DNA of 64,000 nt from positions 6,572,001 through 6,636,000 of the forward strand of contig NZ_VFOZ01000001.1 in assembly GCF_006716425.1 (NCBI RefSeq), in the 5' to 3' direction. Below are positions 3,001 to 55,039 of this stretch, piece after piece. Under the pieces are notes generated by a model that saw only the letters and a list, made by a program, of their open reading frames with translations, was not told the origin of the DNA and searched no databases. The stretch is from Actinoallomurus bryophytorum. Lineage in GTDB: Bacteria; Actinomycetota; Actinomycetes; Streptosporangiales; Streptosporangiaceae. Both the position numbers and the translations under genes were made by a program. Every line of letters begins with the position of its first letter. Within the stretch, counting starts at the first letter, position 1.

Positions 3001-5783
3001 ACAGCGCCACGAGCAGCGTGACCGTGCCGGGCCGGCTGGAGGTCCAGGTGGGACGGGCGCTCGCCGAGTCCGGCCGGGCCCGTGGCCCGCACCCGCCGCC
3101 CGACCTGCGGCCGTTGCCGAAACTGCCGGGGAACTCCTTCAACACCGGCGTCGTCTTCGGCGACACGCAGAGGATCGCCCGCAAGATGCTGGAGCGGATG
3201 TTCGAGCCCGGCCTGGTCGACCGGCTGCTCAGCCCCACGGCCACCCACGCGAAGACCGGCGAGCCGCACACCCGGCCGGTCCTGTCCCTTCCGCTGCTGT
3301 TCTCCCGCATGCACCTCGGCAACCACCTGGCGGACGCGGCCGGCGGCGGCACCTACTGGCTGCCGGACGGCATCTTCGAACCGGGCCAGTCCAGGAAGAG
3401 AGCCGACATCGGGCTGAAGGGCGACTTCTACGGCCTGGAGGTGCTCGGGACGATGAAGAAGGGCAGTGGCGTCGGCCGCTACAACAAGTACCAGAGCGGC
3501 ACGACCGTCAGCGCGAGCACCGACCATTCACGGGTGGTCGGCGACTTCGGGTTGTCCGGCAGCGGGGCGATCGGTGACCACACACCGGGCCACTCCTGGT
3601 CGACCGACAACGGCGCGGGACGGAGCACGGCCTTCGGCGACAGCACGGGCGCCAGCGTGAACAAGCGGGACGAGCAGCACGGCAAGGAGAAGGGACCGCT
3701 GCAACTGGTCCGGATGCGGTTCCGCGGCACACTGGTCGCCAAGCGGTTCAACGACCACCTGTTCCGCAAGAACAAGCCCACGGGTCACTTCGAAAGCGAT
3801 CCGATCACCGGCGAGGCGTACGCCGAGCTCTACCAGGAGCAGATCGACGACCTGAACCGGCAGCTGCACGAGAACGCCAGGGCGCCGCGGAGGGACTGGC
3901 CCGCCATGGAGCGGGCGCCGCGGCTCGACCTGGCTCCGCTGCTGACCGACACGGGCGGCGCCCGCGTCGACGCGCTTCGGGCCTACCGCGGCGTCGCCCA
4001 GCGCATCCGCCGGCAGGCCGGCGCGAACACGCCGGTCGTCCTGACCGCCGACCAGGCCGCGCTCACCGTGAGCGCCCATGAGCAGGTGCTGAGGTGGGCG
4101 GTCCGCACGATGCGGGACGACCTGGAGGCGATTCGGCGGGTCACTCCGGACTTCGAGGCGCCGGAGGCGCTGGCGCGGTACGAGCTGCGGCTGCACGCCC
4201 TGGGCGTGGAAGGCGCCGAAGCCGCCCTCGGCCCCGTGGAGTCTCTGCCGGACGAGACGACGACCGTGATCAACACGGTCAACGCCCTGCATTCCCAGCG
4301 GCCGGACAACCCCACCGGGGCGCCCGCGTCCGCGCCGCGAGAGGCCGCGGCACTGAGCCTGGACCCGGCGTTCCTGGGCCGTGACGTCGCTCACGAGCTG
4401 AACGCACACGTGCAGGTGGACATCGTCGGTCTCGACGGGACCGTGCGCCGTACCTGGGCCGACCCCGACGGCCGGGCCTTCACCTTCGACCCGGCACGGA
4501 TCCGCCGCGACGCGAGCGGCGCCCTGTGGATCTTCGACCCGGTGACCTCCAAGAACCGTTTCTTCACCGCGGAGATCGCGCAACGGGACGGGCTGCTGCA
4601 GCCGGACATGCGCGCCGAACTGGACGCCTACGGATTCGGTTACGCCGAGCTCGGCCGGCTGTACCTGCTCGCCCAGGAGCGACAGCAGACCTTCGAGCAG
4701 GCGGCGGGCGCCGAACTCGCCATCCGGAGGGACCGGCTGACCGCGCACCATGACGACCTGCCGGAGCTGCTCCAGCACGCCGCCGATGCTCAAGCCCACT
4801 GGCGGCAGGAGGCGATCGAGCGCCGGCGGCTCCAGGCCGAGAACGACTCGCTGACCGGCTTCCTGGAGCTGTCCGAGAAGAGACACCAGGCGGAGTGGAA
4901 CGAAGAGGCCGCCACGAAGATCCTCGATCTCCTGCGGGCGGCGGCCCGCAGCGGTTTCAGGACGGACCTCACCGAACAGGAAGTACGGGAGATCGCCGAC
5001 GGGCTCGACCGGATGACGTTCCAGCATGACCGCGAGCTGGCCATGTCGCGGCGCGAACAGCGCCACGCGCGCGCGGAGAGACGGGAGCTCGCCGCGTGGG
5101 CCCCGCAGGACCGCGGCGGCTCGTCGGCGGCGTCCCGTACGGGTGGGGGCCTCACCCGCGAACAGGAGTCGGCGCTGACGTCGCAGGGGCTGGCGCCGCT
5201 CTACGTGCCCGCGACCGGTGACGAGATCGTCAACGCTCTCGGCGCGGGAGCGGCCACCGAGCTCGCCGCGATCGGCCGCGGACGGCCCGCGACACCGGAC
5301 GAGCTGAGAAGGCACCTGGCGGACATGCTCGCCGCCGATCTCGCGCGTACCTCGGCCGAACGGCGGCTGTGGCCGATGATCGATGCCGAGCTGGGCCGGA
5401 TCGGACTGTCGCGGGACGCACCCATGACAGACGACCTCCGCCGCTCGCTCATGGCCATGCTCACCAGCCCCGGCCGCTCCGACGGCGCGGAGGTGCTGAT
5501 GCTCGTCGCCACCGGTGTGGTGCTGCGCCTGCGCGTCGTCGTCATATCGCCGAGCGGCGTGGCGGACGAGTACGGCTTCCCGTCCGGCCGGCGGATCGTC
5601 CTGGTCCGGCTGCCGCAGGGCGGTGCCTACATCGGCGTGTGGACGGCCACCAGGCAGGTCGGGGACGGCGCTCCGTCCGAGGATCCGCCGTCCCCGGCCC
5701 CGAGTCCGGGTCCGCAGTCGACCGGTAGCCGTCAGCCGATCGCGAACCTCGGCGTCGACCCCTTCTCAGGCGTCGGGATCTGA
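3..5783 (+). CDS. Giant modular protein, 5' end outside window
   Basis: The reading frame is open to the left edge, so the true start lies upstream; about 1,926 residues are visible. No signal peptide or membrane segment is seen in this part. Visible residues about 547-656 and 657-751 are a tandem duplication: each copy has a helical block ending in GDVxAGxLxRW and then an RRRxxExFG block. Residues about 1556-1696 are charged and probably coiled coil. The last 200 residues (about 1715-1875) resemble the OTU-like cysteine protease end of large actinobacterial toxins (PATGDxxxNAL, TPDELRRHLADMLAADL, and a final hydrophobic hairpin), but the expected Cys after GD is Glu and the expected terminal His-Tyr is Ala-Tyr, so it looks catalytically dead. 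A Pro/Ser-rich tail follows. Two lectin-type membrane proteins follow in the same direction. The fold calls are inference; overall function is unknown. Confidence 0.8.
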   Translation, partial: PQAFEHGLPVDGEALKTLPEGDTVPYDPEAIRGGGQRGTETGKDKGKGKAVEEPASEPIPPHILKGKGIGTGLLRTDEATVEEIRRMLKEELRPYGFLPEEDRPFGEHRHTHGNKVESRLDNKELLDKMVSLQSLDTNYDQAHQDGLTFTLRLRRGAAGMDLDTDSAKVTIRAKSREDTPPEYLGTVETFHLVNLAMGMDTAGQGTSHSRKIALSLKFKGLFKYLKAALTGIEAQRISGASDSAAFLNNRPELADRVGKALKLRLTDDYEVTVEYQHSGEIGKIAKDHRDRVLPPIERQTAVAHVPTLGNHTHPTLKPSEMSVAELINTERNTPSDVLDQAIIYYADLAGLREAAAGMLKDLVGPAGAADRDVSSFAGHTLVRSHLKEIFNREYTTDRPFEPGLIRNTFGALDISGSLGPARFVDATSDPFVIGIIKLLLLESRLTATKSSGITWDQLDLELGSVAGQANLSTEWDVNRHWQRNTSKSSGRTGAKELIQLKIDRAYLFEAPADLKVSGLLEKRAKLLPSSTAKPGPKTLENRPVGFLLSEPDALHEYARRTVPLSDTQLTDVMKRWQSGELIMNGDVAAGVLTRWRTDVAGRPKARPEDLAFIDALGRDLARAHELGGIRILDQDGRRRFGEAFGQGLSDPPALDPYLGTPLDLVQYAQGTARLDDTRLAEAMTAWQAGTLLLPGDVVAGILLRWTPQAPVDRDELAATLASRHGQGTAPVRDEDLRRRLQETFGRKLPQPPIPAGEVEIPEYLTREDRGGRFIGANGIESFKHRNGKSTYQIVKERIDKVAPGMLSAGAELWNRDRRVIGRMQGGVDALQSLLAKGRDDAMLDEFLAEDGYTFYLVNPTGWLLSDIVEVTISSDLFSPEIGHFVPNTGTEIYGYGGSGTSMGRSRDGGQALTFAKLNMGGLQKPASGGGNTSLKIAEGHHRGTTRSETHLKEQTKYAGYDGQYIVGFDTETSMRVRRLDMSHRPLNNRLLHTFDRWTKHSATSSVTVPGRLEVQVGRALAESGRARGPHPPPDLRPLPKLPGNSFNTGVVFGDTQRIARKMLERMFEPGLVDRLLSPTATHAKTGEPHTRPVLSLPLLFSRMHLGNHLADAAGGGTYWLPDGIFEPGQSRKRADIGLKGDFYGLEVLGTMKKGSGVGRYNKYQSGTTVSASTDHSRVVGDFGLSGSGAIGDHTPGHSWSTDNGAGRSTAFGDSTGASVNKRDEQHGKEKGPLQLVRMRFRGTLVAKRFNDHLFRKNKPTGHFESDPITGEAYAELYQEQIDDLNRQLHENARAPRRDWPAMERAPRLDLAPLLTDTGGARVDALRAYRGVAQRIRRQAGANTPVVLTADQAALTVSAHEQVLRWAVRTMRDDLEAIRRVTPDFEAPEALARYELRLHALGVEGAEAALGPVESLPDETTTVINTVNALHSQRPDNPTGAPASAPREAAALSLDPAFLGRDVAHELNAHVQVDIVGLDGTVRRTWADPDGRAFTFDPARIRRDASGALWIFDPVTSKNRFFTAEIAQRDGLLQPDMRAELDAYGFGYAELGRLYLLAQERQQTFEQAAGAELAIRRDRLTAHHDDLPELLQHAADAQAHWRQEAIERRRLQAENDSLTGFLELSEKRHQAEWNEEAATKILDLLRAAARSGFRTDLTEQEVREIADGLDRMTFQHDRELAMSRREQRHARAERRELAAWAPQDRGGSSAASRTGGGLTREQESALTSQGLAPLYVPATGDEIVNALGAGAATELAAIGRGRPATPDELRRHLADMLAADLARTSAERRLWPMIDAELGRIGLSRDAPMTDDLRRSLMAMLTSPGRSDGAEVLMLVATGVVLRLRVVVISPSGVADEYGFPSGRRIVLVRLPQGGAYIGVWTATRQVGDGAPSEDPPSPAPSPGPQSTGSRQPIANLGVDPFSGVGI

Positions 5784-8678: not shown

Positions 8679-9827
8679 TCAGCGCACCACGGGCACGCCG
8701 TCTCCGGCGAAGAACTCGACCATGGCGCGCGGGGAGTCCGGCGCGAAGCACATGTCCAGTCCCTGGGCGGACCCGGCGGCGGCGGCCGCGGCGCGGGGGA
8801 ACATGGCCGTCTCGTACTCCAGGAGCGCCGTCTCGATGTCGTCCTGGTGCGCGACGAGGGCCAGCGCCAGCTCGGCCCCGTCGAGCAGGGCGAGGTTGGC
8901 GCCCTCACCGGCGTACGGCGACATCACGTGCGCCGCGTCGCCCACGAGCGTCACACCGGGGACCCGCGACCAGGAGTGGCCGGTCGGCAGGGCGTAGATC
9001 AGGCGCGGGACGATCGTGTCGTCGCAGTTGCGGATGAGGTCGGTCAGCTCCGTGCTCCAGTCGGCGAACTCCGCGAGCAGGAGCGCGCGGGCGGCGGCCG
9101 CGTCGGACCAGTCGACGCCGCGGGTGGCCGTCCAGTCCTTGGGCACCCGCAGTGAGGCGCCCACGTGAACGTCGGTGCCGCCGTGCCCTATCAGCGCCTT
9201 GTCGTCGGAGAGGGCGAACATGATCCCGGGGCCGAAGAGGGCGGCCGAGTCGGGATGACGCGTCCTGACGTCGGTCAGGCGCAGCTCCAGGTAGGAGATT
9301 CCGGCGTACTCCGGGGTGACCGCCGAGACCAGGGGCCGTACCTTCGACCAGGTGCCGTCCGCGCCGACCAGCAGGTCGACGGTGGTGCTGCCGCCGTCGG
9401 CGAAGGTCAGCTCGTGCCGGCCGTCGTCGAGCGAGCGGGCCGCGGTGACCTTGTGGCCCCAGGCGACGCGGCCGGGGTCGAGGGATTCGATGAGCAGGTC
9501 GCGCAGGGCGGTCCGGTCGATCTCGGGGCGGCCGCCGTAGCCGCCCTCCGGCTCGTGGTGGATGAAGACCGTGCTGGCCTTGTCCAGAACGCGCATGGTC
9601 TCACCCTCGGGATGGGTGAGCGTGAGGAACCGCTCGTGGAGGCCGGCCTCGCGCAGCGCGAACTGCCCGGACTCCTCGTGCAGGTCGAGGGAGCCGCCCT
9701 GGCTGCGGGCGTCGGCCGAGGCGTCGCCTTCGTACACCGTGGACTCGATGCCGTGCATCTGCAGGATGCGGGCGAGGACGAGGCCGCTGGGGCCGCCGCC
9801 GACGATCGCGATGGAGGGTGTGGACAT
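8679..9827 (-). CDS. FAD-dependent monooxygenase (TetX/PHBH type)
   Basis: A 382-residue flavoprotein hydroxylase of the aromatic hydroxylase superfamily. The N-terminal Rossmann motif GGGPSGL (about residues 10-16) binds FAD, the middle has the DG segment (VGADGTWSKVRP), and the GD motif (LVGDAAHVMSPYAGEGAN) is near residue 300. Such enzymes use NAD(P)H and O2 to hydroxylate aromatic or polyketide substrates; tetracycline-inactivating TetX is a close type, but the substrate cannot be told from sequence. ATG 9827 has GAGGAG upstream. It begins 12 bases upstream of the 3' end of the TetR gene, so the TetR gene lies before it on the same strand and the two are probably one autoregulated unit. 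Confidence 0.85.
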   Translation of the reverse strand: MSTPSIAIVGGGPSGLVLARILQMHGIESTVYEGDASADARSQGGSLDLHEESGQFALREAGLHERFLTLTHPEGETMRVLDKASTVFIHHEPEGGYGGRPEIDRTALRDLLIESLDPGRVAWGHKVTAARSLDDGRHELTFADGGSTTVDLLVGADGTWSKVRPLVSAVTPEYAGISYLELRLTDVRTRHPDSAALFGPGIMFALSDDKALIGHGGTDVHVGASLRVPKDWTATRGVDWSDAAAARALLLAEFADWSTELTDLIRNCDDTIVPRLIYALPTGHSWSRVPGVTLVGDAAHVMSPYAGEGANLALLDGAELALALVAHQDDIETALLEYETAMFPRAAAAAAGSAQGLDMCFAPDSPRAMVEFFAGDGVPVVR

Positions 9828-44539: not shown

Positions 44540-45493
44540 TCATTCCAGGCCGGCGGCCATAAAGGCCTCTCGCGTCGCGGTGTCGTCAAGCGCGTCCACG
44601 TCGCGGAACGCACGTACCGTCGCCCTGGCGGCCGGGGCGACGTCGAAGACCGGCGCGCCCGGCGGGTAGGAGCGCCGCACGATGGTGTCCGCTTCGGCTG
44701 CGGTGAAGCCCGACGCGACCAGGGCGGCACGTACCGCGGCCAGATCCGGGTGGAGGAAGGCCTCCACGAGTTCGGGTACGCGGGGGCCGACCAACCGACG
44801 CTGCGCCGCGGTGAGCCGTGGCCACAGGCAGCGAAGGAACGCGCGGAAGTAGGAGTGGTGGCGCCCCTCGTCGGCGGCGTGGTCGGCGACCAGTGCGCGT
44901 ACCGGCTCGGGCAGCCGGCGGTCGAACGGCAGGCCCGCCAGAAGCGAGGACACCAACGTCTCGCTGACCACGGCGAACACCAGGTCGACCAGGGGCCGGT
45001 CCGCCACGTCGAAACCGTCCCTGAGCCGGGCGAGCAGGTGCGCGAACCGCGGCTCCACCACCGCGCTCGCCGCGATGCCCGTCACCGCGGCGACCCGCTC
45101 GGTGAAGTCGTGGGAGCTCTGGGCGTGCCACGCCTCATCCGTGGTGATCTTGAACGCGTCGGCGCGCATCGCGGCGGGCAGCGCCACGACTCCCGCCCGG
45201 TCCAGGGAGATGCGCGCGGTCACCGGCAGCACGGCGACCTGTTCGAGCACGGTCGTGAAGTGCAGGTACTGGTAGAGCGAGTGCACGAGAAGCCGGTGTG
45301 CGACCGCCGGTCCCCGCTCGACGACGAGCGGATCGGACACGGCCGGGACCGCCTCCGGCGGGAAGAAGACCGTCGCCGGCGTCGCCTCCGTCAGGATCCT
45401 CGGCGGCTTGTTCCGTACGCTCGCACGGTTCTCCCAGTTACCGAACGTGCTCGTGTAGCTCCATCCCGGGTTCGCTCGCTCCTCTGGGGCCAT
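44540..45493 (-). CDS. AurF-type diiron N-oxygenase
   Basis: A 317-residue protein of the p-aminobenzoate N-oxygenase (AurF) family. The seven diiron ligands of AurF (E101, E136, H139, E196, H223, E227, H230) have counterparts at E84, E120, H123, E178, H205, E209 and H212 with nearly identical spacing, in VLEQV, DEAWH, SETL and HAADEGRH. AurF-type enzymes oxidise amines to hydroxylamine or nitro groups with O2. Here it is the last gene of the peptide-modification operon, starting two bases after the pqqD-like stop, so an amine on the peptide or on a building block is the likely substrate (inference). Confidence 0.85.
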   Translation of the reverse strand: MAPEERANPGWSYTSTFGNWENRASVRNKPPRILTEATPATVFFPPEAVPAVSDPLVVERGPAVAHRLLVHSLYQYLHFTTVLEQVAVLPVTARISLDRAGVVALPAAMRADAFKITTDEAWHAQSSHDFTERVAAVTGIAASAVVEPRFAHLLARLRDGFDVADRPLVDLVFAVVSETLVSSLLAGLPFDRRLPEPVRALVADHAADEGRHHSYFRAFLRCLWPRLTAAQRRLVGPRVPELVEAFLHPDLAAVRAALVASGFTAAEADTIVRRSYPPGAPVFDVAPAARATVRAFRDVDALDDTATREAFMAAGLE

Positions 45494-45495
45494 GC

Positions 45496-45765
45496 TCAGC
45501 CCGGGAACTCGAGGATGTCGCTCCGCGCCAGCGCGTCGAGGAGCTCCGCGACATCCTCGACCGCCGTGTCGACCGGGATCGCGTACTTTTCGGCGAGGAG
45601 CACACCGATCTCCTGGACGCTGCGTCTTCCATTGATTCCGCGGAAGATGAACTCGGCCGACTCGGAGAGTTCGAACGTCTCCTCATCGATCGAGACGAGC
45701 AACTGACCTCGGAATTTGCGAGCCCGTACGCTGGTGCGCCTTTTCGGGATCGATTCCGGCGTCAC
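45496..45765 (-). CDS. PqqD-family RiPP recognition element protein
   Basis: An 89-residue PqqD-like protein: three N-terminal beta strands (SVRARKFRGQLLVSIDEETF in part) and a helical half with GINGRRSVQEIGVLLAEKY and a C-terminal LLDALARSDIL helix. PqqD-type proteins bind the leader of a precursor peptide and hand it to the modifying enzymes; lasso-peptide B1 proteins are of this fold. The GTG start overlaps the stop of the nucleotidyltransferase gene as GTGA. A 22-residue precursor with a Y-x-x-P leader motif is encoded in the same operon. Confidence 0.88.
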   Translation of the reverse strand: MTPESIPKRRTSVRARKFRGQLLVSIDEETFELSESAEFIFRGINGRRSVQEIGVLLAEKYAIPVDTAVEDVAELLDALARSDILEFPG

Positions 45766-46547
45766 GTGATCTCCACCTCCATGGCGATGTCCTTGCACAG
45801 GTCGACGACCTGCTCCACCCATTGCGCCGGGTCGGCCGGATCATAGCCACGCATGGTCTCGATCTCCCAGTACTCCTCGAAGGTCAGCGGCTCCGGTTTC
45901 GCCTCCTGAAAGCGCCGGGCCCGCCATTTCGGCGGATTCGGGTACTCGCCGTAACCGACGAGCAGTGCGTCCACGGCGCAGCCGAAGGCGTCCCGCGCCG
46001 AGAGCACGGCGCTGGGCAGGTCACCGGCGGCCAGCTGGCCCATCGCGGTCTCGGCCCTCGTGTCGGCCATGGCGAGCAGGTCGGTCAGGACGTAGGTCTG
46101 AAAGGCGGACTCCTCGATCTGCCGCAGGCGGCGGCGTACCCAGTCCGGCCCGGACAGCGGATGGCAGGCCGCCAGCCGCCCCAGAAGGATCTCCTCGGTG
46201 GGGATGAGCCGGGCGCCCGCGGTCCTGTCGTGGTCGAAGGAGTCGCGGGAGACCTTGTCGAGCACCTGGTCCACCTGGTCGTCCAGCCAGTACTTGACCT
46301 CCCAGCGGCGACCTTCCCGCGTGAAGCCGATGACGTCGACCTCGCCCGGACTGAGCGGGACGGTGACCCTTTCCAGCCTCTCGTCCTGGAAGCGTTCCGC
46401 GCACACCACCACCAGGTCGAGGTCGCTGGCGCCGTGGTCCCAGCCCCGGACCGTCGAGCCGACGACGAACACGGCCAGCTCGGTGCCGGGCAGCAGGCCG
46501 AGGTCCCTGAGGGTGGGCAGGCAGTGGGCGAACCTGTCCTCGTTCAT
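45762..46547 (-). CDS. Nucleotidyltransferase-domain protein
   Basis: A 261-residue protein with a polymerase-beta-type nucleotidyltransferase domain at its N-terminus: VVGSTVRGWDHGASDLDLVV contains the G-S-x(n)-D-x-D catalytic pattern, and the third acidic residue is probably in EVDVIGF. The C-terminal two-thirds is mostly helical. Such enzymes transfer a nucleotide to a small molecule or peptide; nucleotidyltransferases also occur in some lasso-peptide clusters. Its start shares ATGA with the asparagine-synthase stop, and its stop shares GTGA with the pqqD-like start, so the three are tightly coupled. Confidence 0.8.
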   Translation of the reverse strand: MNEDRFAHCLPTLRDLGLLPGTELAVFVVGSTVRGWDHGASDLDLVVVCAERFQDERLERVTVPLSPGEVDVIGFTREGRRWEVKYWLDDQVDQVLDKVSRDSFDHDRTAGARLIPTEEILLGRLAACHPLSGPDWVRRRLRQIEESAFQTYVLTDLLAMADTRAETAMGQLAAGDLPSAVLSARDAFGCAVDALLVGYGEYPNPPKWRARRFQEAKPEPLTFEEYWEIETMRGYDPADPAQWVEQVVDLCKDIAMEVEIT

Positions 46548-48769
46548 CGGCCGGCTCCCTGAGTCGTGGTGAGAGCGCCGGCGGTCGCCGTGAGCACGCC
46601 GGCGTCCAGGGCGTCCCACAGCTCGGTGGCCACCGACGCGTGCGTGACGCCCGCCTCGGTGAGCACCTCACCGATGCGACGCCGCCCGTCGACCGCACGC
46701 AGGAACGCGCACCATTCCGGGGCGGCCGAGGCGGTCGCGACGTACTCGAACTGGCCACCGACGGCGAGATAGAGCGTGTCCGGGTCGGCCGGCTCCGCGA
46801 CCAGCAGGACGTCCGGGGCTAGGGCGACCACGTCGTCAGCGCGCGGTTCGGGACAACGGTGCATCGCGGCGGTCAGGCCGGGGGCGTCCTGGTCCCAGTC
46901 CGTGATCGGCGCGGCGGAGAGGATCTTCACCGGGGGTGCGTCGACGGGCGGCACCGGAGGCTCCGCGGCCATCTGGTCGAGCAGCCCGAGGTTGACCAGC
47001 CGCAGCAGGAACTCGACCCCGAAGGGCTCCATCTCACCGGCCAGCCCGCGCAGCATCCCCCGCAGCGCGTCCGGCCGCAGGTGCCGCCGGGCCCCGGGGC
47101 TCGCCAGAGCCTCCTCCAGCAGCGCGTCTCCGTCCTGGCGCAGCATCCGCACCATGGCCCGGTGGGTGAACCCGGCGCCCTCCCCGTAGAAGAACGACAC
47201 CTTGGGCCGGTCCGCGACGAACGCGGGCAGCAGATCGCGTACGCCGTCGCGCAGGATCCGCTTGTCCCACAGCAGGCTCGCTCGCCGGCCGGCCGGGATC
47301 GTGGCCAGCAGCTCGATGACGCGGTGGTCGAGGAAGGGGACGCGCGCCTCGACGCCGTTGCCGGCGGCGGTCCGGTCCTCGTGCCAGCAGTTGTACTGCT
47401 GGACGTCCCGGTGCTTCCAGGCCACGTACCCGGGGTACGGGTCGGCCGCTCGCCGGCCGGCGCCGTCCCGCAGCAGGTCCTCGGCGAGCAGCTCGCCATG
47501 CTCCCACCATGACGCCAGGGCCGGCAAGCCGTGCAGCGCGGACGCCCTGGCCAGGTCCCGCACGCCCACCTCGAAGCCCGCCCACCCGTCCCCCCGGGTG
47601 ATCGTGGTCGAGTAGCCGCCGTTGTACTCGTCGCTGGCCTGGCCCAGCAGCATCCCCCGCAGCTCGGGACGTACGTGCTTGGCATAGCGGTAGAGCTCGT
47701 ACTTGTAGTACTGCTCCGCGTTGCACAGAGGGGTCTCCAGCAGCCAGAGCAGGCGCTTCCACTCCTCGGTGCCGGGTATCCGGTCCGGCTCGAACACCAG
47801 CTGGTGGTTGGGCATGCCGAGCGCCCGCGCGACCCGATGACCGTGCTCGGCGTCGCCGTTGGCCAGTGTGGCGGCGTTCAGGACGCTGAAGGTGTGGATC
47901 GTGGTGCCCTGACGTGCCGCGAGCGCCGCCACCGAGGCGGAGTCGACACCCCCGCTGAGGAACAGCCCCACCTCGGCGTCGGCCCCGGTGCAGTCGGCCA
48001 CCGACGCGGCGAGCAGCTCACGGTACGCCCGGATCAGCTCCTCGTCGGAGGCGTCGTTGTCACCGTCGAAGCCGGGCAGTTCCCAGTACGTGCGGTGCTC
48101 GGTGTGTCCGGTCGTCAGGTCGATGGTGACGATCCCGCCCGCCGGCACCGTCTCGATGCCGTGGAACCAGGTGTTGACCGGCTCGTGGCTCAGGTACGGC
48201 GCGGCGGTCATGGACTGGTCGGCCAGCGCGCCGTCCCAGTCCAGCTCACGCCGGCAGCCGGGATGCTGGAAGAGCGCCTTGATCTCCGAGGCGAACAGCA
48301 CGGTGTCGCCGGCACGGGTGTAGTAGAGCGGCTTGACGCCGAACCGGTCGCGCGCGAACACCAGCCGGCCGGCGGCGCGATCCCACAGGGCGATGGCGTA
48401 CATGCCGGCGACGTCGTCGAGGAAACGGTGACCGCGCTGCGCGTACAGGTGGGGGAGTACCTCACAGTCGGACTTGGTGCGCATCGGGACGCCGGCCAGT
48501 GGCCCGGCCTCCAGCTCGCGGTGGTTGTAGACCTCCCCGTTCGCGATCAGCACCTGCTGCCGGTCCTGGCTGAACAGTGGCTGGTCGCCGTCTGCCGGAC
48601 CGACCAGGGCGAGGCGGCGGAAGCCCATCGCCACCGGTCCGTCGCGGAACAGCCGCTCACCATCGGGACCACGGTGTCCCACGGCCCGCGTCATTCGTTC
48701 GAGCAGCACCTCGTCACGAACGGACAGATCACCGCCGCCGACGCGTGCCATGCCCGTCAGGCCACACAT
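46544..48769 (-). CDS. Asparagine-synthase/lasso-cyclase-like enzyme with C-terminal RRE-like domain
   Basis: A 741-residue class B asparagine-synthetase homologue. The N-terminal glutaminase is intact: Cys2, the R52 region, NGE at 78-80 and D101. The synthetase domain has the PPi loop SGGVDS (272-277) and the family core through VEARVPFLDHRVIELL. After about residue 610 there is an extra 130-residue extension; its last 80 residues (LYLAVGGQFEYV, LRAVDGRRRIGEVL, ELWDALDAGVLT) resemble a PqqD-type winged helix. It adenylates a carboxylate and either transfers ammonia or closes an amide, as lasso C proteins do. ATG 48769 places Cys next to the initiator Met; GAGGAG precedes it. Confidence 0.85.
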   Translation of the reverse strand: MCGLTGMARVGGGDLSVRDEVLLERMTRAVGHRGPDGERLFRDGPVAMGFRRLALVGPADGDQPLFSQDRQQVLIANGEVYNHRELEAGPLAGVPMRTKSDCEVLPHLYAQRGHRFLDDVAGMYAIALWDRAAGRLVFARDRFGVKPLYYTRAGDTVLFASEIKALFQHPGCRRELDWDGALADQSMTAAPYLSHEPVNTWFHGIETVPAGGIVTIDLTTGHTEHRTYWELPGFDGDNDASDEELIRAYRELLAASVADCTGADAEVGLFLSGGVDSASVAALAARQGTTIHTFSVLNAATLANGDAEHGHRVARALGMPNHQLVFEPDRIPGTEEWKRLLWLLETPLCNAEQYYKYELYRYAKHVRPELRGMLLGQASDEYNGGYSTTITRGDGWAGFEVGVRDLARASALHGLPALASWWEHGELLAEDLLRDGAGRRAADPYPGYVAWKHRDVQQYNCWHEDRTAAGNGVEARVPFLDHRVIELLATIPAGRRASLLWDKRILRDGVRDLLPAFVADRPKVSFFYGEGAGFTHRAMVRMLRQDGDALLEEALASPGARRHLRPDALRGMLRGLAGEMEPFGVEFLLRLVNLGLLDQMAAEPPVPPVDAPPVKILSAAPITDWDQDAPGLTAAMHRCPEPRADDVVALAPDVLLVAEPADPDTLYLAVGGQFEYVATASAAPEWCAFLRAVDGRRRIGEVLTEAGVTHASVATELWDALDAGVLTATAGALTTTQGAGR

Positions 48770-48811: not shown

Positions 48812-50071
48812 TCACGCCGGTTGAGACTCACGGACCGGTGCCTCCGGCAGGTCCCGGCGCCCGCGTAGGTCGGAGAACAGGAGGGGCAGGGGCGTCAGCA
48901 GCAGCAGTCCGCACACGGCCCACAGGGCGGCCCGGTTGCCCGCCAGCTCGCCCAGAGACCCGCCGAGCAGGGCACCGATGGGCAGCACGCCCCAGGAGAT
49001 GAACCTGATGCTGGCGGTCACCCGCGCCAGCAGCACGCGGGAGACGGTGGCCTGGCGGTAGCTGCGGGCCAGCAGGCTGAACACCGTGATGCACACCTCG
49101 CGGCCGACCAGTCCGGCCCCGAGCAGCACGAGGCCCGCGCCCGCCGTGGAAAGCGGTGCCAGCATCGAGATCAGCGGGCAGACGCAGGCGGTGAGCACCA
49201 TGGTCCGCGCGCCGCCGAGCCTGGCGGCGACACGGGGGCCGAGTACGCCGCCGAGCACGCCGCCGACGCCGCCGACCGCGAGCAGCACACCGATCAGCGC
49301 GGGCCTCACCTCCACGGTCCGCAGCAGGAACGGCACCAGAAGGGTCTCGTACGCGGTGCCCACCATGTTCAGGCCCGCCGCGACCAGCATCAGCGGTCTG
49401 ATCACCGGGTCCGCCAGTACGTGCCGCAGTCCCTCACGGATCTGCGGCAGCATCCGCGCCCGATCCGTCACCTCGGAGGGTTCTTCCCGGGTGCGGAGCG
49501 TGGACAGGAACAGCGCGGAGAACAGGTAGCTCGCGACGTCGACGAGCAGCGTCAGCGGTGCGCCGATCAGCTGCGCCAGGGCGCCGCCGACGGCGGGACC
49601 ACCGGTCTGCGCGGCCGACTGACCGGCCTGCAGCCGGCTGTTGCCCGCCAGCAGGCCGTCCGCCTCGACGACCAGGGGGAGGTACGTCTGACCGGCGATG
49701 TCGAAGAACACCGAGGCGACACCGAGGACGAGCGCCACGAGGACGAGCTGGGGGACGCTCACCATCCCGGTCGCGACCGCGACGGGTACCGAGACGAGCG
49801 CGACCGCGCGCAGGAGGTCACAGGCGACCATCAGTGGCCTACGCGCCAGGCGATCGACCCAGACTCCGGCGGACAGGCCGAGAACCAGCCAGGACAGGAG
49901 TTCCGCCGCCGAGATGAGGCCGACCGCGAAGGTGGAGGCGTGCAGAGTCACCAGTGCGACGAGGGGCAGCGCCACGGTCGTCAGAGTGGTACCGAAGGAG
50001 CTCGCGGTGGTCGCCGCCCACAGGCGCACGAAGTCGCGACCACCGAACCTTCCGGCCCACTGACTCACCAC
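48812..50071 (-). CDS. MFS exporter (EntS/MFS_3 type)
   Basis: A 419-residue major facilitator with about 12 transmembrane helices. The start (FGGRDFVRLWAATTASSFGT) and the loop motif WVDRLARRPLMVACDLLRA are typical of the MFS_3 group that exports siderophores, macrolides and peptides. It lies between the precursor-peptide gene and the asparagine-synthase gene, so it probably exports the finished product and gives self-protection. GTG 50071 has AAAGGAG upstream; a second GTG follows directly. A hairpin between the peptide gene and this one may lower its expression relative to the peptide. Confidence 0.85.
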   Translation of the reverse strand: MVSQWAGRFGGRDFVRLWAATTASSFGTTLTTVALPLVALVTLHASTFAVGLISAAELLSWLVLGLSAGVWVDRLARRPLMVACDLLRAVALVSVPVAVATGMVSVPQLVLVALVLGVASVFFDIAGQTYLPLVVEADGLLAGNSRLQAGQSAAQTGGPAVGGALAQLIGAPLTLLVDVASYLFSALFLSTLRTREEPSEVTDRARMLPQIREGLRHVLADPVIRPLMLVAAGLNMVGTAYETLLVPFLLRTVEVRPALIGVLLAVGGVGGVLGGVLGPRVAARLGGARTMVLTACVCPLISMLAPLSTAGAGLVLLGAGLVGREVCITVFSLLARSYRQATVSRVLLARVTASIRFISWGVLPIGALLGGSLGELAGNRAALWAVCGLLLLTPLPLLFSDLRGRRDLPEAPVRESQPA

Positions 50072-50184: not shown

Positions 50185-50253
50185 TCAGGTGCGGCTTCGG
50201 AGCACCGCGTTGCTGTCTACCTTCTTGACGATCGGCTTGCTGTATTTGGTCAT
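50185..50253 (-). CDS. Candidate RiPP precursor peptide, 22 residues
   Basis: A very short gene with the strongest ribosome site in the window (AAAGGAGGTGA, six bases from ATG). The peptide begins MTKYSKPIVKK, continues VDSNA and ends VLRSRT. Tyr4-x-x-Pro7-x-Val9 matches the Y-x-x-P-x-L/V motif by which lasso-peptide leaders bind the PqqD-type B1 protein, and such a protein is encoded 4.4 kb downstream in the same operon. Only 13 residues follow Val9 and there is no T-x-G cleavage site, so a lasso core is unlikely. Asp13, Ser14, Asn15, Ser20 and the C-terminal Thr are possible modification sites (inference). It could also be a scaffold peptide on which units are added. The gene lies between the oxidoreductase and exporter genes. 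Confidence 0.7.
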   Translation of the reverse strand: MTKYSKPIVKKVDSNAVLRSRT

Positions 50254-50284
50254 TCCGTCACCTCCTTTCTCGTCGTGCAGACTG

Positions 50285-51424
50285 CTAGGTCAGCGGCCAT
50301 TCACGCCCCGGGGTCATCCCGATTCCGTCGGTGAAGAACCGTGGATCCGGTACGTCCACCCAGGAGCCGCCCGCGGCCGCCGAGCCTTCGGACACGATCC
50401 CGGGAAGCATGGTGTCGAGGGCGGCATAGACGCCGAGCGGCGGAGGCGATCCGGACCGGATCGCGTCGACGAAGTCGAGGGTGGGGCCGTATGGCGTCTT
50501 CCAGAGGCTTTCATCGGTGGCGAGCTCCCGGTAACGCCCGGGGAGGAACGTCTCGACGTAGGGATCCAGGGGTTCCCATTCGCGCTCCGCGCTCCGGCCG
50601 CGGATGTGGACCCGAGGCCGGTCGAACGGACCACGGCCGGACTCGAAGGCCCCGTTGGATCCCTGAACCGCCACGTAGGAGGCCTCACGAGGCCGGTAGG
50701 AGATCAGGTCCTGGCGCATCGTCACCAGCGCGTGGCCGGCGGTCCGGCCCAGGAGTACCATCGTGCTGTCCACCGCGTAACCGGGCTCCCGTCCGGCCCC
50801 GGCGGCGGCGACCGCGACCAGGCGGGTGTCCATCCACCGCAGCAGCGGCCCGAGAGTGTGCGTGGGATAGGTGACCGCGTTGCGCCCGGCGTGCCATTCG
50901 CCCTGCCAGGTCGGCCGCCCGTCCGTGTCGCGCAGCTTGTGCCGGGCCTCGTAGAGGTACTCGCCCTCGGCGTAGTAGAGGTCGCCGAACAGGCCCTCGC
51001 GCACCATGGCCTCGACGGTCAGGTGGTGCGGGAAGTAGCAGTGGTTCTCCGCCATCATGTAATACGCGTCGCTCTGGCGGCAGGCGGCCACCAGATCATG
51101 GGCCTGGTCGATGCCGGCGACCGGTGGTATCTCACTCAGCACGTGAATGCCGCGCCGGAGCGCGGCGACGGCCTGCGGCACGTGGTGCTGCTGCGGTGAG
51201 GCCAGGTAGACCGCGTCGACGCCGGAGGCGAGAAGCTCGGCGAAGTCACCGGCGATCCGCACGCGCGGATGACCGTCGCGGAGCGACGCCCCGGCCTCGG
51301 CGGAGGGATCGAACGCGGCGACGAGCTCCGCGTGGGGGACGCGGGCGAGGGCGCTCACGAAGCTCGCGCCCCGGCGAAGCCCGGCGATCCCGAAACGGAC
51401 GACGTCGGCCGTACGTTCGGACAT
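50285..51424 (-). CDS. Gfo/Idh/MocA-family oxidoreductase
   Basis: A 379-residue NAD(P)-dependent sugar/cyclitol oxidoreductase: N-terminal Rossmann fold (FGIAGLRRGASF; YLASPQQHHVPQAVAAL) and a C-terminal alpha/beta domain with NHCYFPHHLTVEAMVREGLFGDLYYAEG in part and a conserved GPLLRWM/H segment. The usual E-K-P active-site motif reads E-I-P here, so the catalytic lysine is missing and the chemistry may differ. RifL of rifamycin biosynthesis is also in this family and also travels with a two-subunit transketolase, but no AHBA synthase is present here. It precedes the precursor-peptide gene by 31 bases. Confidence 0.85.
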   Translation of the reverse strand: MSERTADVVRFGIAGLRRGASFVSALARVPHAELVAAFDPSAEAGASLRDGHPRVRIAGDFAELLASGVDAVYLASPQQHHVPQAVAALRRGIHVLSEIPPVAGIDQAHDLVAACRQSDAYYMMAENHCYFPHHLTVEAMVREGLFGDLYYAEGEYLYEARHKLRDTDGRPTWQGEWHAGRNAVTYPTHTLGPLLRWMDTRLVAVAAAGAGREPGYAVDSTMVLLGRTAGHALVTMRQDLISYRPREASYVAVQGSNGAFESGRGPFDRPRVHIRGRSAEREWEPLDPYVETFLPGRYRELATDESLWKTPYGPTLDFVDAIRSGSPPPLGVYAALDTMLPGIVSEGSAAAGGSWVDVPDPRFFTDGIGMTPGREWPLT

Positions 51425-51463: not shown

Positions 51464-52387
51464 TCAGTGCAGGAGTTCGCGCGCCGACCGGACGATCGCG
51501 TCGGCGGTCAGGCCGTACGCGGCGAGCAGCTCCGCGGCGGGCGCGGACTGGGTGTAGCCCTCCAGCCCCACGAACCGCATGGGCACGGGACACAGGGTGG
51601 CCAGCGTCCGCGCCACGATGGAGGCCAGGCCGCCCTGCTTCAGGTGTTCCTCGGCCACGACGATCCGGCCGGTCTCACGCGCGGCGGATTCCAGCGTCCG
51701 CGCGTCGATCGGCTGGAGCGTCGACACATTTACCACCCGGCACGCGATGCCGTCACCGGCGAGGACGTCCGCCGCCTCCAGGGCGGCCTCCACCATCGTG
51801 CCGGTGGCGACGACGGTGATGTCGTGACCCGGCCGCAGGACGTTGGCCGTGCCGGTCGCGAAGGGTTCGGACCCGGAGACGTCCGCCGCCGATTCGTACC
51901 GGCTGCAGCGCAGATAGAAGGGGCCCTCGCTCTCCAGCGCGGCGCGGAGCGCGGCGGCGGTCTGCGGCGCGTCGGCGGGGACGACGACGCCGACGCCGGG
52001 GAGTGAGCACATCAGCGCAAGGTCCTCGACCGCCTGCGCGGAGATGCCGTCCTCGCCCACCGTGATACCGCCGTGCGTGCCGACCAGCGTGACGTTCAGC
52101 CGGGGCTGGGCGACGAGGAGGCGCATCTGATCGAACGCACGGGTCGTCAGGAAGGCCGCGAACGACACGGCCACCGCCGGCACTCCCGACGCGGCAAGCC
52201 CGGCCGCGATCGAGACGAGACTCTGCTCGGCGATGCCGCAGTTGAAGTACCGATCGGGGAACCGCTGGGCGAATGACCAGGTCCGGGTGGGCTCGGACAC
52301 GGCGGCGTCGAGTACGACGAAGTCCGGCCTTTCCTTGCCCAGCTCGACCAGGGCCTGGCCGAAGGCGTCACGCGTGGACGTCCGCAT
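51464..52387 (-). CDS. Transketolase, C-terminal subunit
   Basis: A 307-residue protein equivalent to the C-terminal half of transketolase: the pyrimidine-binding domain (YFNCGIAEQSLVSIAAGLAASG in part, with the catalytic Glu in AEQ) and the transketolase C domain. It forms a two-chain enzyme with the product of the gene before it, moving a two-carbon ketol unit with thiamine diphosphate. Split transketolases occur in secondary-metabolite clusters, for example in rifamycin biosynthesis. ATG 52387 is chosen; GTG 52420 would add 11 residues and overlap the partner gene. Confidence 0.87.
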   Translation of the reverse strand: MRTSTRDAFGQALVELGKERPDFVVLDAAVSEPTRTWSFAQRFPDRYFNCGIAEQSLVSIAAGLAASGVPAVAVSFAAFLTTRAFDQMRLLVAQPRLNVTLVGTHGGITVGEDGISAQAVEDLALMCSLPGVGVVVPADAPQTAAALRAALESEGPFYLRCSRYESAADVSGSEPFATGTANVLRPGHDITVVATGTMVEAALEAADVLAGDGIACRVVNVSTLQPIDARTLESAARETGRIVVAEEHLKQGGLASIVARTLATLCPVPMRFVGLEGYTQSAPAAELLAAYGLTADAIVRSARELLH

Positions 52388-52394
52388 CTGCCGC

Positions 52395-53261
52395 CTATGC
52401 CCTTTCGAGATAGCGCTCACCGGCCGGGTTCAGCTCGGCTATCGCCGCGTCCAGCAACTCCGGAGGCAATGGGCGCATGTGGTATTCGGGATTGTCGGCC
52501 ACGTGCCGGGTTCCCTTTCCTCGCACCGTACGTGCGATGATCACTTTCGGCCTGCCGGTCCTCGAGTCGCGTGCGTCGGTGAGCTCGGCGAGGAGAGCCG
52601 GCAGATCGTGACCGTCGACCTCGTGCGTGTCCCAGCCGAACGCCTCCCATTTGTCCGCCATCGGTTCCATCGGACCGTACGGAAGGGAGCCGGACGTCTC
52701 TCGCTCGTGGTCGTTCCGGTCGACGATCACGGTGAGGGTGTCGAGGTTCCAGGTGGCGGCGTTGATGGCAGCCTCCCAGATCTGTCCCGCGTTGCACTCG
52801 CCATCGCCCACCATGACGAACGTGTGGTAGTCCCGGCCCGTGACCCGAGCGGCCAGGGCGACGCCGATCCCGAAGGAGAGTCCCTGCCCCAGGGAGCCGG
52901 AGGACGCCTCGACGCCGGGCGTCAGGGTCATGTCGGGAAAGCCCGGCAGCCGGCTTCCGATACGCCGCAGCGTGCGCAGCTCGGCGGCGGGAAAGTAACC
53001 CGAAAGAGTGAGAGCGGCGTAGAGCGCCGGGGCGGCATGCCCCTTGCTGAGAATGAACCGGTCGCGTTCCGGCCAGCCGGGTTCTTCCGGGCGGTGCCTC
53101 ATGAGGTGGAAATACAGAACCGCGATGACGTCCGCCGCCGACAGGGACGGGCCGGGATGGCCGCTGCCCGCGAGTGTCGTCATTTCCAGGACCAGAGTGC
53201 GGAGCCGCATCGCCTTTTCGGCGACGGACCGGATATCGTCCGTGCTCGCTGGTTCGGTCAT
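52395..53261 (-). CDS. Transketolase, N-terminal subunit
   Basis: A 288-residue thiamine-diphosphate-binding subunit: GSGHPGPSLSAADVI, FILSKGHAAPALYA, and the cofactor motif GDGECNAGQIWEAAINAATWNLD in part. It ends VADNPEYHMRPLP, typical of split transketolases. It is eight bases from the next subunit, and both are needed for activity. ATG 53261 has AAGGA very close upstream; a start ten codons earlier is possible. The partner pathway is unknown, but the eIF2B-like and NDK-like genes before it also point to phosphorylated sugars. Confidence 0.88.
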   Translation of the reverse strand: MTEPASTDDIRSVAEKAMRLRTLVLEMTTLAGSGHPGPSLSAADVIAVLYFHLMRHRPEEPGWPERDRFILSKGHAAPALYAALTLSGYFPAAELRTLRRIGSRLPGFPDMTLTPGVEASSGSLGQGLSFGIGVALAARVTGRDYHTFVMVGDGECNAGQIWEAAINAATWNLDTLTVIVDRNDHERETSGSLPYGPMEPMADKWEAFGWDTHEVDGHDLPALLAELTDARDSRTGRPKVIIARTVRGKGTRHVADNPEYHMRPLPPELLDAAIAELNPAGERYLERA

Positions 53262-53304
53262 CTTCCTTCGCTGTCCTCGGGTAGGCGCCAAGATACACGA
53301 ATCT

Positions 53305-54363
53305 CTATATCTGCTTGACCGAATTCAGGTGCCGGCTACGTAGGGAGAGCGACAACCACTCTGTGTCGAAAACAATGGCGTCTCGTGTGCCGAGTGTGAT
53401 CCCGGCCTTTTCCGCGGCGTCGCTCATCCGCTCCGGATCGAAGTCGGCCGCGAACAGCGCGCCTTCGGCCTCGGCGAACACCGTCAGCAACGGCTCGGAG
53501 GGATCGAGTTCCCGCCGGAGGAGCGGGTACACGGGCCGGAACCGCGACCTGAACTCGGCGAGGACCTCGACGGGCCGGTCCGGGGCGCGGCCTGCGGTCC
53601 AGGCGGCTTCGGCGGCGGTCAGACGCTCCGCCTCCGCGAGATCGGCCGTGGGCACCGAGACCCGTATCCGTTCGAGCAGGCTCCGGCGCAGCGACACCGC
53701 CACGTGGGCCAGCGAGACGCCCTCCGGCAGGCCGGTCGCCGGTGTCAGGGACAGCGCGTCCTCGCGGCCACGCGCCTGGGGACCTGAGCGGGCGTCGCGG
53801 GCGCGGTTCCACAGGGTGAGCAGTTCCTGCTCCGGCAGCATGACCGCGGCCTCCCGCAGGAGCTCCGGCGGGCCGTCCGGCATGTGCACGAAGTTGTTGA
53901 ACATGTTGGCCGCGCCGAGATGATGGCGGAGATGGTGCGGAGCGGTCCGGTCCGGGTCCGCGTGGCCCTTCAGCTCGCACAGCCGGGTCGCCACCGGGAT
54001 GCCGTCCCGCACCGGGCCGACGACGGCCAGCAGCAGGGAGGGCCCGTAAGTCAGCAGCCGCGACACGAGACGGATCCGGTCCGCACCGTCGTCGGCGATC
54101 TGGTACTTCCACATGCGGTGGATGCGGTCGTCGGTGAGCCGCACCGTATGCGCGTACTCCACGCTGAAGCCGTGGGCGTCGAGCCATTCCAGCGCCACCG
54201 GGGTCCGGCGGGTGGCGAGGGAGAGCGGCGGAAGAACGAGCACCGCCGTCGAGGCGAGAACCTCCCGAGCCGCCGCTCCGGTCGCGGCGCGCATGACCCG
54301 GACGCCCACGGTGAAGTCGAGGTCGTCCTCGTACCGCGTGAAGTCGTCGTCCGCGTGAGACAT
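53305..54363 (-). CDS. Protein with nucleoside-diphosphate-kinase-like domain
   Basis: A 352-residue protein whose first 190 residues follow the nucleoside diphosphate kinase pattern: a first strand with LVLPPLSL, LDAHGFSVEYAHTVRLTDD, LLLAVVGPV, VATRLCELKGHADPDRTAP and HHLGAANMFNNFVHMPDGP; the histidine in NFVHMPDG aligns with the catalytic His of NDK (N-x-x-H-x-S-D). The second half has no recognised domain. It may transfer phosphate, or the fold may be reused for another purpose. It is the second gene of the peptide operon. Confidence 0.65.
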   Translation of the reverse strand: MSHADDDFTRYEDDLDFTVGVRVMRAATGAAAREVLASTAVLVLPPLSLATRRTPVALEWLDAHGFSVEYAHTVRLTDDRIHRMWKYQIADDGADRIRLVSRLLTYGPSLLLAVVGPVRDGIPVATRLCELKGHADPDRTAPHHLRHHLGAANMFNNFVHMPDGPPELLREAAVMLPEQELLTLWNRARDARSGPQARGREDALSLTPATGLPEGVSLAHVAVSLRRSLLERIRVSVPTADLAEAERLTAAEAAWTAGRAPDRPVEVLAEFRSRFRPVYPLLRRELDPSEPLLTVFAEAEGALFAADFDPERMSDAAEKAGITLGTRDAIVFDTEWLSLSLRSRHLNSVKQI

Positions 54364-54397: not shown

Positions 54398-55039
54398 TCA
54401 GCCGCCGATGGCGGCGGCCCGCCGGCCGACGTCCGCGGGATCGAGGATCTCGCCGTCGAGCGCGACGGCGGCGAACGCGCGCAGGGGGATCCGTTCGAAG
54501 ACCGGGGCGCCGAGGCGTGAGAAGACGCTTCCGGGCACGAGCTTCAGCGACGTGGTGACCACCAGCGTCGGCAGCCGTGCGGCCAGCTCGGCCGTGCCTT
54601 TGATGTTCAGCACCTCGGCCGGGCCGATCGCGTCGGCTCCGGCCAGGGCGATCGCGGCGCCGTCGTCGGGCCCGTGCCCGAGCCGGGCCAGTACCTGGCT
54701 CACGACCGAGCTGCTGGGCGCGACCGCGACCGCGCCGCCACGGTCGGCCACCCACGCGGCGGCCGCGGCCACGCTTTTGCCGACGGCCTCGTCCAGCTCC
54801 CCGCGGATACGCAGCAACGCGGCGGCCGGCTCGTCGCCGTGGACGGCATCGGCGATATGCCAGATCGGGGCGTAACCGGGAAGCCGGGCGGCCAGAATCG
54901 CCGCCGCCTGTTCGAGCGCGCCACGGTCGTCGACGATCTCGAGCAGACCGGCGATCGCGAGACGCGCGACACCGGTCGCACCGGCCGTTTTGGTCCTGAG
55001 GGCTTCCTGGAGGGCCGTGGGCAGTGCGGCTTCGTCCAC
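54398..55039 (-). CDS. eIF2B/ribose-1,5-bisphosphate-isomerase-like protein
   Basis: A 213-residue protein of the eIF2B/MtnA superfamily: GADAIGPAEVLNIKGTAELA, TTSLKLVPGS and the C-terminal FERIPL and EILDPADVGRRAA blocks are present. Family isomerases convert ribose-1,5-bisphosphate or methylthioribose-1-phosphate. It is shorter than the usual 300 residues, and the catalytic Cys of the isomerases (in THC-N) is replaced in VAVAPSSSVV; the GAD aspartate is kept. The first gene of the peptide operon, it starts at GTG 55039 with AAAGG upstream. A sugar-phosphate role is inferred. Confidence 0.65.
   Translation of the reverse strand: MDEAALPTALQEALRTKTAGATGVARLAIAGLLEIVDDRGALEQAAAILAARLPGYAPIWHIADAVHGDEPAAALLRIRGELDEAVGKSVAAAAAWVADRGGAVAVAPSSSVVSQVLARLGHGPDDGAAIALAGADAIGPAEVLNIKGTAELAARLPTLVVTTSLKLVPGSVFSRLGAPVFERIPLRAFAAVALDGEILDPADVGRRAAAIGG

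Follow-up and report, generated by a model that had tools for sequence, protein, structure and literature searches.

What a gene of only 22 codons contributes to a cluster of enzyme genes is the question raised by a 64,000-nucleotide stretch of the Actinoallomurus bryophytorum genome (contig NZ_VFOZ01000001.1, positions 6,572,001 to 6,636,000), referred to below as the window. The gene lies on the minus strand at 50253..50185 and consists of 22 codons followed by TGA, with the translation MTKYSKPIVKKVDSNAVLRSRT. Its ribosome-binding site, AAAGGAGGTGA, occupies 50268..50258 on the same strand, and seven bases separate its AGGAGG from the ATG, which confirms the open reading frame and full ribosome site reported in a preliminary description of this DNA. 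Tyr4, Pro7 and Val9 are present as that description listed them; as a Y-x-x-P-x-V motif they hold only in part, since Val9 does not belong to the conserved portion and the invariant motif is Y-x-K-P. The hairpin placed 3' of the stop codon exists, but the 116-nt stretch after the stop folds no better than shuffled versions of itself (z -0.33; 76 of 200 shuffles fold as well), and a search there for a terminator-like site found none.

The neighbouring genes are those described earlier, all on the minus strand. A Gfo/Idh/MocA oxidoreductase gene (50285..51424), probably a small-molecule supply gene, adjoins the short gene here and again in a related locus, L011; on the other side is a gene for an MFS transporter, the probable exporter (48812..50071; MFS_3, 2.5e-31). 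Next comes an asparagine-synthase-like enzyme, AsnS, of the FzmA family (46544..48769; 741 aa counted from MCG), which combines an Ntn glutaminase domain with Cys2, an adenylating synthetase domain and a C-terminal RRE-like winged-helix domain (residues 631-741; 46547..46879). It is followed by a nucleotidyltransferase of 261 aa (45762..46547; NTP_transf_2, 4.5e-5), in which G30, S31, D42 and D44 are invariant (17/17) and for which no solved family was assignable (best E 0.064); by a stand-alone PqqD-type RRE of 89 aa (45496..45765; Pfam PqqD 1.7e-11 in a 108-aa reading, PDB PqqD entry 5sxy 2.1e-4); and by a homologue of AurF-type diiron N-oxygenases of 317 aa (44540..45493; Pfam AurF 1.3e-18). 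Residues E84, E120, H123, E178, H205, E209 and H212 of the AurF homologue are invariant in all 8 sequences aligned and presumably represent the seven ligands expected for a diiron centre. Beyond the oxidoreductase are the pyrimidine-binding and C-terminal part (51464..52420; Transket_pyr, 2.5e-43) and the N-terminal part (52395..53291; Transketolase_N, 6e-50) of a transketolase, a protein with a weak nucleoside-diphosphate-kinase-like region (53305..54363; NDK 4.8e-5 and 23.7 bits, short of the gathering score of 27), whose relatives occur in 12 of 38 clusters at a threshold of our own, and a conserved protein (54398..55039) with no Pfam or NCBIfam match that is 88% identical in L011.

Relatives of the peptide, 22 residues long, were first met in another genome from the window's genus and in one Frankiaceae MAG. 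Searching one genome per species with a nucleotidyltransferase profile built from two sequences yielded 15 loci. A nucleotidyltransferase match in genome G062 was weak (8.1e-19). Nine of the 15 have AsnS in the fetched stretch, and the peptide is found in all nine as well as in the window; five have a hydrazine cassette with no AsnS in the first stretch, and one (L014) has neither. If the module is one unit, AsnS and the peptide are expected further out in the five hydrazine-cassette loci (L020-L024), and in all five the same contig carries both, at a distance of 19-23 kb. At L014, in Actinokineospora globicatena, nucleotidyltransferase and PqqD genes are present, the genome has no family AsnS (best match 1.5e-75) and there is no 22-mer; upstream of the gene pair is a precursor-like ORF of 70 aa ending ASCETGAQ (9558-9770, plus strand), which may represent another class using the same nucleotidyltransferase-PqqD pair.

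The AsnS family profile matches five fosfazinomycin-type genomes at 3.2e-287 or better, against 3.8e-61 to 1.5e-75 for the ten other AsnS homologues listed, so that the FzmA-type AsnS forms a sequence family distinct from AsnB. At 1e-200 or better the profile finds 23 of 392 Streptomyces genomes, 4 of 250 in the family of the window, 5 of 297 in the family of G418 and 12 of 250 in the family of G424, counts that include known members (G423 and G430; G000, G006 and G983; G418; G424). Altogether 57 distinct AsnS-family loci were collected (38, plus 16 later loci and 3 on plasmids), and a 22-residue peptide with Tyr4 and Pro7 occurs in 55 of them (38 + 14 + 3). Within these figures are a 47-residue form with a doubled leader, the last 22 residues of which fit the family (L015), and a gene that starts with GTG (L013). 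No 22-mer was found within 18 kb in L109/L115, one locus under two handles, and the locus L099/L114 has only a divergent candidate just upstream of AsnS. The small ORF in L114 (6729-6800, plus strand), MNHMQPTKTEEVVDVEALFAVVA, lacks Y-x-x-P and lies directly upstream of a divergent family AsnS. Gene calls in relatives came from our own GC-based caller, so starts there are approximate.

Several controls bear on whether such a short reading frame could recur by chance. None of the ten other AsnS homologues encoded in these genomes had a Tyr4 peptide within about 2.5 kb on either side, a span smaller than that of most family loci; two of the ten had a chance 22-codon ORF with Val4 or Trp4 plus Pro7. 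The 918,821 bases of the window and 43 loci contain 40 22-codon ORFs with Y4-x-K-P7, every one a member of this peptide family, and five first-order Markov resamples contain 0, which excludes chance. The 22-codon gene is thus a real gene and one of a conserved family. The preliminary description had proposed looking for the peptide in related clusters; it is conserved there, and the contrary picture of homologous clusters without it was not borne out. The gene tables of the three plasmid records, themselves incomplete, list no gene at its place, so a gene this short may be overlooked. The plasmids are large and linear and come from Streptomyces (L092, L093, L094); two of the records are typed as mobilizable, transposases lie near the cluster in L092 and L094 and a recombinase gene in L093, and the cluster may therefore move between strains.

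Among 57 distinct peptides, Tyr4 is present in 57, Lys6 in 56 and Pro7 in 57. Position 9 is Ala in 33, Val in 15, Thr in 7 and Ser in 2; Val12 occurs in 52, Val or Ile at position 17 in 53 and Leu at position 18 in 44. The distance from Pro7 to the C-terminus is constant across the family, and the last residue may be Ala, Val, Arg, Thr, Pro, Lys, Ser, Ile or Cys. The single Cys-ending precursor among the distinct sequences, with the end SNVC, is from L108 (3836-3904, minus strand). Four precursors from different genomes (L013, L101, L103, L106) end in Thr-Pro with positions 19-20 variable, and three of four such precursors sit with a CAAX-protease-like (Rce1) gene in the fetched stretches (L013, L117, L118).

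Sequence change is distributed unevenly along the gene. Over 13 related pairs, some of which share a member, codons 2-18 show 23 synonymous and 25 non-synonymous differences, and codons 19-22 show 5 and 21 (Fisher p 0.023). Such a pattern matters for the suggestion that the 22 codons are a regulatory leader ORF, acting in cis on translation or attenuation, with a peptide that is no substrate at all. A short frame that has a strong ribosome site and frequently lies immediately upstream of AsnS is what that suggestion would lead one to expect. It does not fit the relatively larger share of synonymous change in codons 2-18 than in codons 19-22, the invariance of Tyr4 and Pro7, or a gene position that shifts to about 5 kb upstream of AsnS in L072 and 6 kb in L017. 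Nor does it fit the three near-identical tandem copies in L076 (8521-8813) and again in L107 (1146-1416), or the doubled-leader form in L015. We consider a regulatory role very unlikely and reject it on these grounds. L072 also carries two different tandem precursors (3860-4037), with ends SGNA and VNGA.

The ends of the peptides drift even between close relatives. Between the window and L011, whose AsnS proteins are 87% identical, the peptides differ at positions 20-22 (RSRT and RGSV). Where two AsnS proteins share at least 70% identity (31 pairs), the peptides agree at positions 19, 20, 21 and 22 in 74, 29, 71 and 74% of cases, figures to which 13 pairs of two hydrazine-type loci contribute; in the other 18 pairs the values are 56, 17, 50 and 56%. 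Position 20 therefore drifts most and position 19 is kept as well as 21 and 22, so the last two residues are not singled out, and at AsnS identities of 60-70% no end position of the peptide stands out.

Drifting ends of this kind, together with a leader-like conserved part before a short variable end and supply genes that vary between clusters, are also what one would expect of a removable scaffold, on the C-terminus of which a small molecule is built and then released without any peptide residue. TglA/PEARL and LysW are peptide-carrier systems of that type. No Pfam match to a LanB-like peptide aminoacyl-tRNA ligase (PEARL) was obtained among ten directon proteins scanned, and the ends of the hydrazine-type peptides, described below, run against release without a peptide residue. 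We judge a removable scaffold unlikely, and prefer the reading in which the peptide is a RiPP precursor whose last residues enter the product.

The conserved part of the peptide resembles lasso peptide leaders. The RRE-recognised lasso motif is [Y/W]xxPx[L/V/I/A/F/Y] according to the part of PMC13381572 available, and Y-x-x-P followed by any residue and Ala or Val fits it. A PqqD-type RRE and an enzyme of AsnS fold are further features shared with lasso peptides, and together with the Y-x-x-P leader they could point to a lasso precursor with a truncated core. Yet the whole peptide has 22 residues, leaving no core of 13-20 residues; 29 of the 57 distinct peptides contain no Asp or Glu and so lack an acidic ring acceptor; the glutaminase Cys of AsnS is kept; and the lasso-cyclase model NF033535 gives AsnS 171.8 bits against a cut-off of 525. 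The B2 protein of lasso clusters is a transglutaminase-like leader peptidase, and no Pfam match to one was found among ten directon proteins scanned. A lasso precursor is therefore rejected as extremely improbable, in agreement with the preliminary description, which had proposed a RiPP precursor or derivatised scaffold of a non-lasso class; the conservation of the peptide supports that proposal. Microcin C (MccA/MccB) is no closer, as its precursors mostly have seven residues and its enzyme is of ThiF type; here a 22-residue peptide goes with a PqqD protein and an AsnS-type enzyme, and the ten directon proteins scanned gave no Pfam match to a ThiF-type MccB adenylyltransferase. These clusters do hold two general features of RiPP pathways, a gene-encoded precursor with a conserved leader motif and a recognition element in the same cluster, and we hold it highly probable that the 22-mer is a conserved RiPP precursor.

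The glutaminase motif of AsnS is intact, Cys included, and the match to TIGR01536 is above the cut-off. A fold search with the whole protein, a test outside of which the C-terminal domain falls, returned TsnB9 as the top match, tied with AsnB. The C-terminal domain, folded and searched alone, has an RRE-like fold, which winged helices from non-RiPP proteins match as well or better; Foldseek alone returned nothing at E <=0.001 for this domain. In the accessible text of PMC13418202, TsnB9 moves hydroxylamine from glutamyl hydroxamate to a carboxylate; the trichostatin TsnB6/7/9 hydroxamate cassette to which it belongs differs from the present clusters in acting on a small-molecule substrate, with no peptide or RRE described there. 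AS-like enzymes also act on RiPPs: PesC of the nitrilobacillin pathway modifies the C-terminal carboxylate to give a nitrile, and TsrC and ScdTA likewise work on C-terminal carboxylates (PMC13060819, portion available). That portion pairs PesC with MNIO hydroxylation in Bacillus-type clusters and mentions neither an AurF or hydrazine module nor a 22-mer of fixed length. Should the peptide be a substrate of AsnS, its C-terminus would be the only carboxylate shared by every member of the family, 29 of 57 sequences being without Asp or Glu, and we think AsnS probably does act on the C-terminus of the 22-mer.

Companion genes were tabulated over 38 loci at score thresholds of our own. Of these, 36 have the nucleotidyltransferase gene within the fetched stretch and the remaining two have it elsewhere on that contig; the PqqD gene falls within the fetched stretch in 35. 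AurF occurs in 30. The eight without it are seven hydrazine-type loci and L016, where AurF lies on another contig of the genome. All five cassette genes are present in each of the merged loci L020/L026 to L024/L030; the other two hydrazine-type loci are so classed on partial evidence (only a GS-like gene in L079, GNAT and amidase genes in L080). L065, with AurF and one cassette-type amidase, is a partial exception to what is otherwise an either-or choice, and this alternation suggests that the two modules supply a single step. TMK-like or NDK-like genes are found in 23 of 38 loci and homologues of PEP mutase and phosphonopyruvate decarboxylase in 7, while supply genes differ by cluster (transketolase, sugar kinase, inositol phosphatase, adenylosuccinate synthetase, formyltransferase and others). 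Five of the 16 later loci, read over 17-18 kb, have AurF in 5 of 5 and the nucleotidyltransferase and PqqD in 3 of 5, L115 and L116 having AurF with neither of the others within 18 kb; at each of the three plasmid loci, genes for nucleotidyltransferase, PqqD and diiron oxygenase are annotated. No common leader peptidase was found across the clusters.

Two features of individual AurF loci are recorded here. In L077, PEP mutase and phosphonopyruvate decarboxylase homologues occur together with AurF, that is, phosphonate plus AurF chemistry. Ten of the 30 AurF frames, read from an in-frame ATG, begin with an N-terminal stretch MCG[TI]xG[LM]FxGC..CP with three spaced cysteines (L013, L018, L025, L059, L064, L065, L067, L068, L069, L071); the start of this stretch resembles the Cys start of Ntn amidotransferases.

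The exchange of AurF for the hydrazine cassette bears on a simpler reading, in which AsnS does no more than turn the peptide into an amide or nitrile, a small molecule apart from the peptide is the substrate of AurF, and a longer peptide is the mature product. The intact glutaminase motif with a TIGR01536 match above cut-off would suit C-terminal amidation, as would the action of TsrC, ScdTA and PesC on C-termini (PMC13060819, in the part available). Over 38 clusters, with L016 and L065 as exceptions, the swap nevertheless ties both modules to the same step, and only four residues follow the conserved Val/Ile17-Leu18. Plain amidation accordingly appears improbable to us, and we return to a RiPP-type pathway whose product keeps the peptide end joined to a nitrogen nucleophile.

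The hydrazine-type clusters connect the family to a known antibiotic. Strain NRRL S-244 holds a fosfazinomycin A-like cluster, according to the part of PMC12692060 available. In its loci (L023, L029), 82 bases separate the 22-codon gene from the AsnS gene downstream of it, and all five hydrazine-cassette clusters, that of NRRL S-244 among them, contain the family AsnS, the 22-mer, the nucleotidyltransferase and PqqD. The FzmA-family label used here, a putative link to the published FzmA (U5YQM4), is based on the NRRL S-244 cluster and on gene content. The window differs from fzm in having AurF in place of the hydrazine cassette; its directon gave no match to homologues of the cassette genes (GS, amidase, FzmP, GNAT, lyase), and a PEP mutase gene sought there was not found.

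All seven hydrazine-type peptides, six of them distinct, end A-x-Val-Arg, where x is Thr, Ala, Asn or Val. Fosfazinomycin itself contains Arg and Val-Arg. The seven loci are related, so the VR ends are not independent, and Ala19 is constant in them too; a peptide from an AurF cluster, L018, also ends VR. Val, N-methyl-Arg, hydrazine and methyl hydroxyphosphonoacetate together give m/z 461.1966 for the 15N7 ion, which matches the value in the portion of PMC6133997 available, a check of the fosfazinomycin A structure by mass alone that does not separate isomers. Since FemAB-like and ATP-grasp genes in the fosfazinomycin-type stretch L026 could add Val later, Arg is the firmer claim.

Published enzymology touches on the same step. 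In the available part of PMC6133997, FzmA frees hydrazine from glutamylhydrazine, neither adenylation of free Arg nor condensation with it was seen, and FzmH accepts free argininylhydrazine. The last observation fits a free-amino-acid route, or release of Arg before methylation. According to a 2025 preprint (PMC12154649, in the part available), the fosfazinomycin pathway is not yet confirmed beyond the shared hydrazine intermediate, and among the matches listed from the open-licence literature there was no ribosomal peptide for fosfazinomycin and no such gene set.

Taken as a whole, the explanation that we favour, at a probability of roughly 0.6, is that a RiPP-type pathway starts from the 22-mer as its precursor and that nothing but the end of this peptide remains in the product. 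We infer each chemical step from sequence, and the roles of AurF and the nucleotidyltransferase from the gene pattern. Residues 1-18, with Y4-x-K6-P7, V12 and V/I17-L18, would form a leader held by PqqD and by the RRE-like domain of AsnS. The FzmA-type AsnS would adenylate the C-terminal carboxylate, as PesC reportedly does, and join to it a nitrogen nucleophile drawn from a gamma-glutamyl donor. That nucleophile would be hydrazine in the hydrazine-cassette clusters; in AurF clusters, the window included, it may be hydroxylamine made by N-oxygenation, yielding a C-terminal hydroxamate, with ammonia as a fallback. The nucleotidyltransferase, assisted by TMK-like and NDK-like kinases in clusters that have them, might then attach a phosphoryl, phosphonyl or nucleotidyl group to this nitrogen or oxygen; that it makes a bond to phosphorus is a tentative assignment, to which we give somewhat less than even odds. 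A peptidase would cut off the leader so that the last one or few residues remain, and the transporter would export the product. Retention of those residues is slightly favoured; for fosfazinomycin they would be Arg or Val-Arg.

These results suggest that antibiotics of the fosfazinomycin type start as ribosome-made peptides. A wider proposal is somewhat less likely than not: that fosfazinomycin belongs among the RiPPs, together with a broad group of phosphorus-nitrogen and nitrogen-oxygen antibiotics from actinobacteria. In these, a precursor fixed at 22 residues would supply the last one or few residues, an RRE-fused AsnS would cap its C-terminus with hydrazine or hydroxylamine, and the link to phosphorus would be made by a nucleotidyltransferase. 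EM2487 and 1100-50, which contain hydroxylamine, would then be candidate members of this RiPP group, as would phosmidosine, and the Thr-Pro-ending precursors of four loci could give rise to prolyl products. With a ribosomal substrate, the failure of FzmA to act on free arginine would be explained, an idea open to test with a synthetic 22-mer such as MKVYVKPEAKKVDQGTIVAAVR. A ribosomal substrate would also link many unstudied clusters through one short gene and would let the end of each product be read from DNA.
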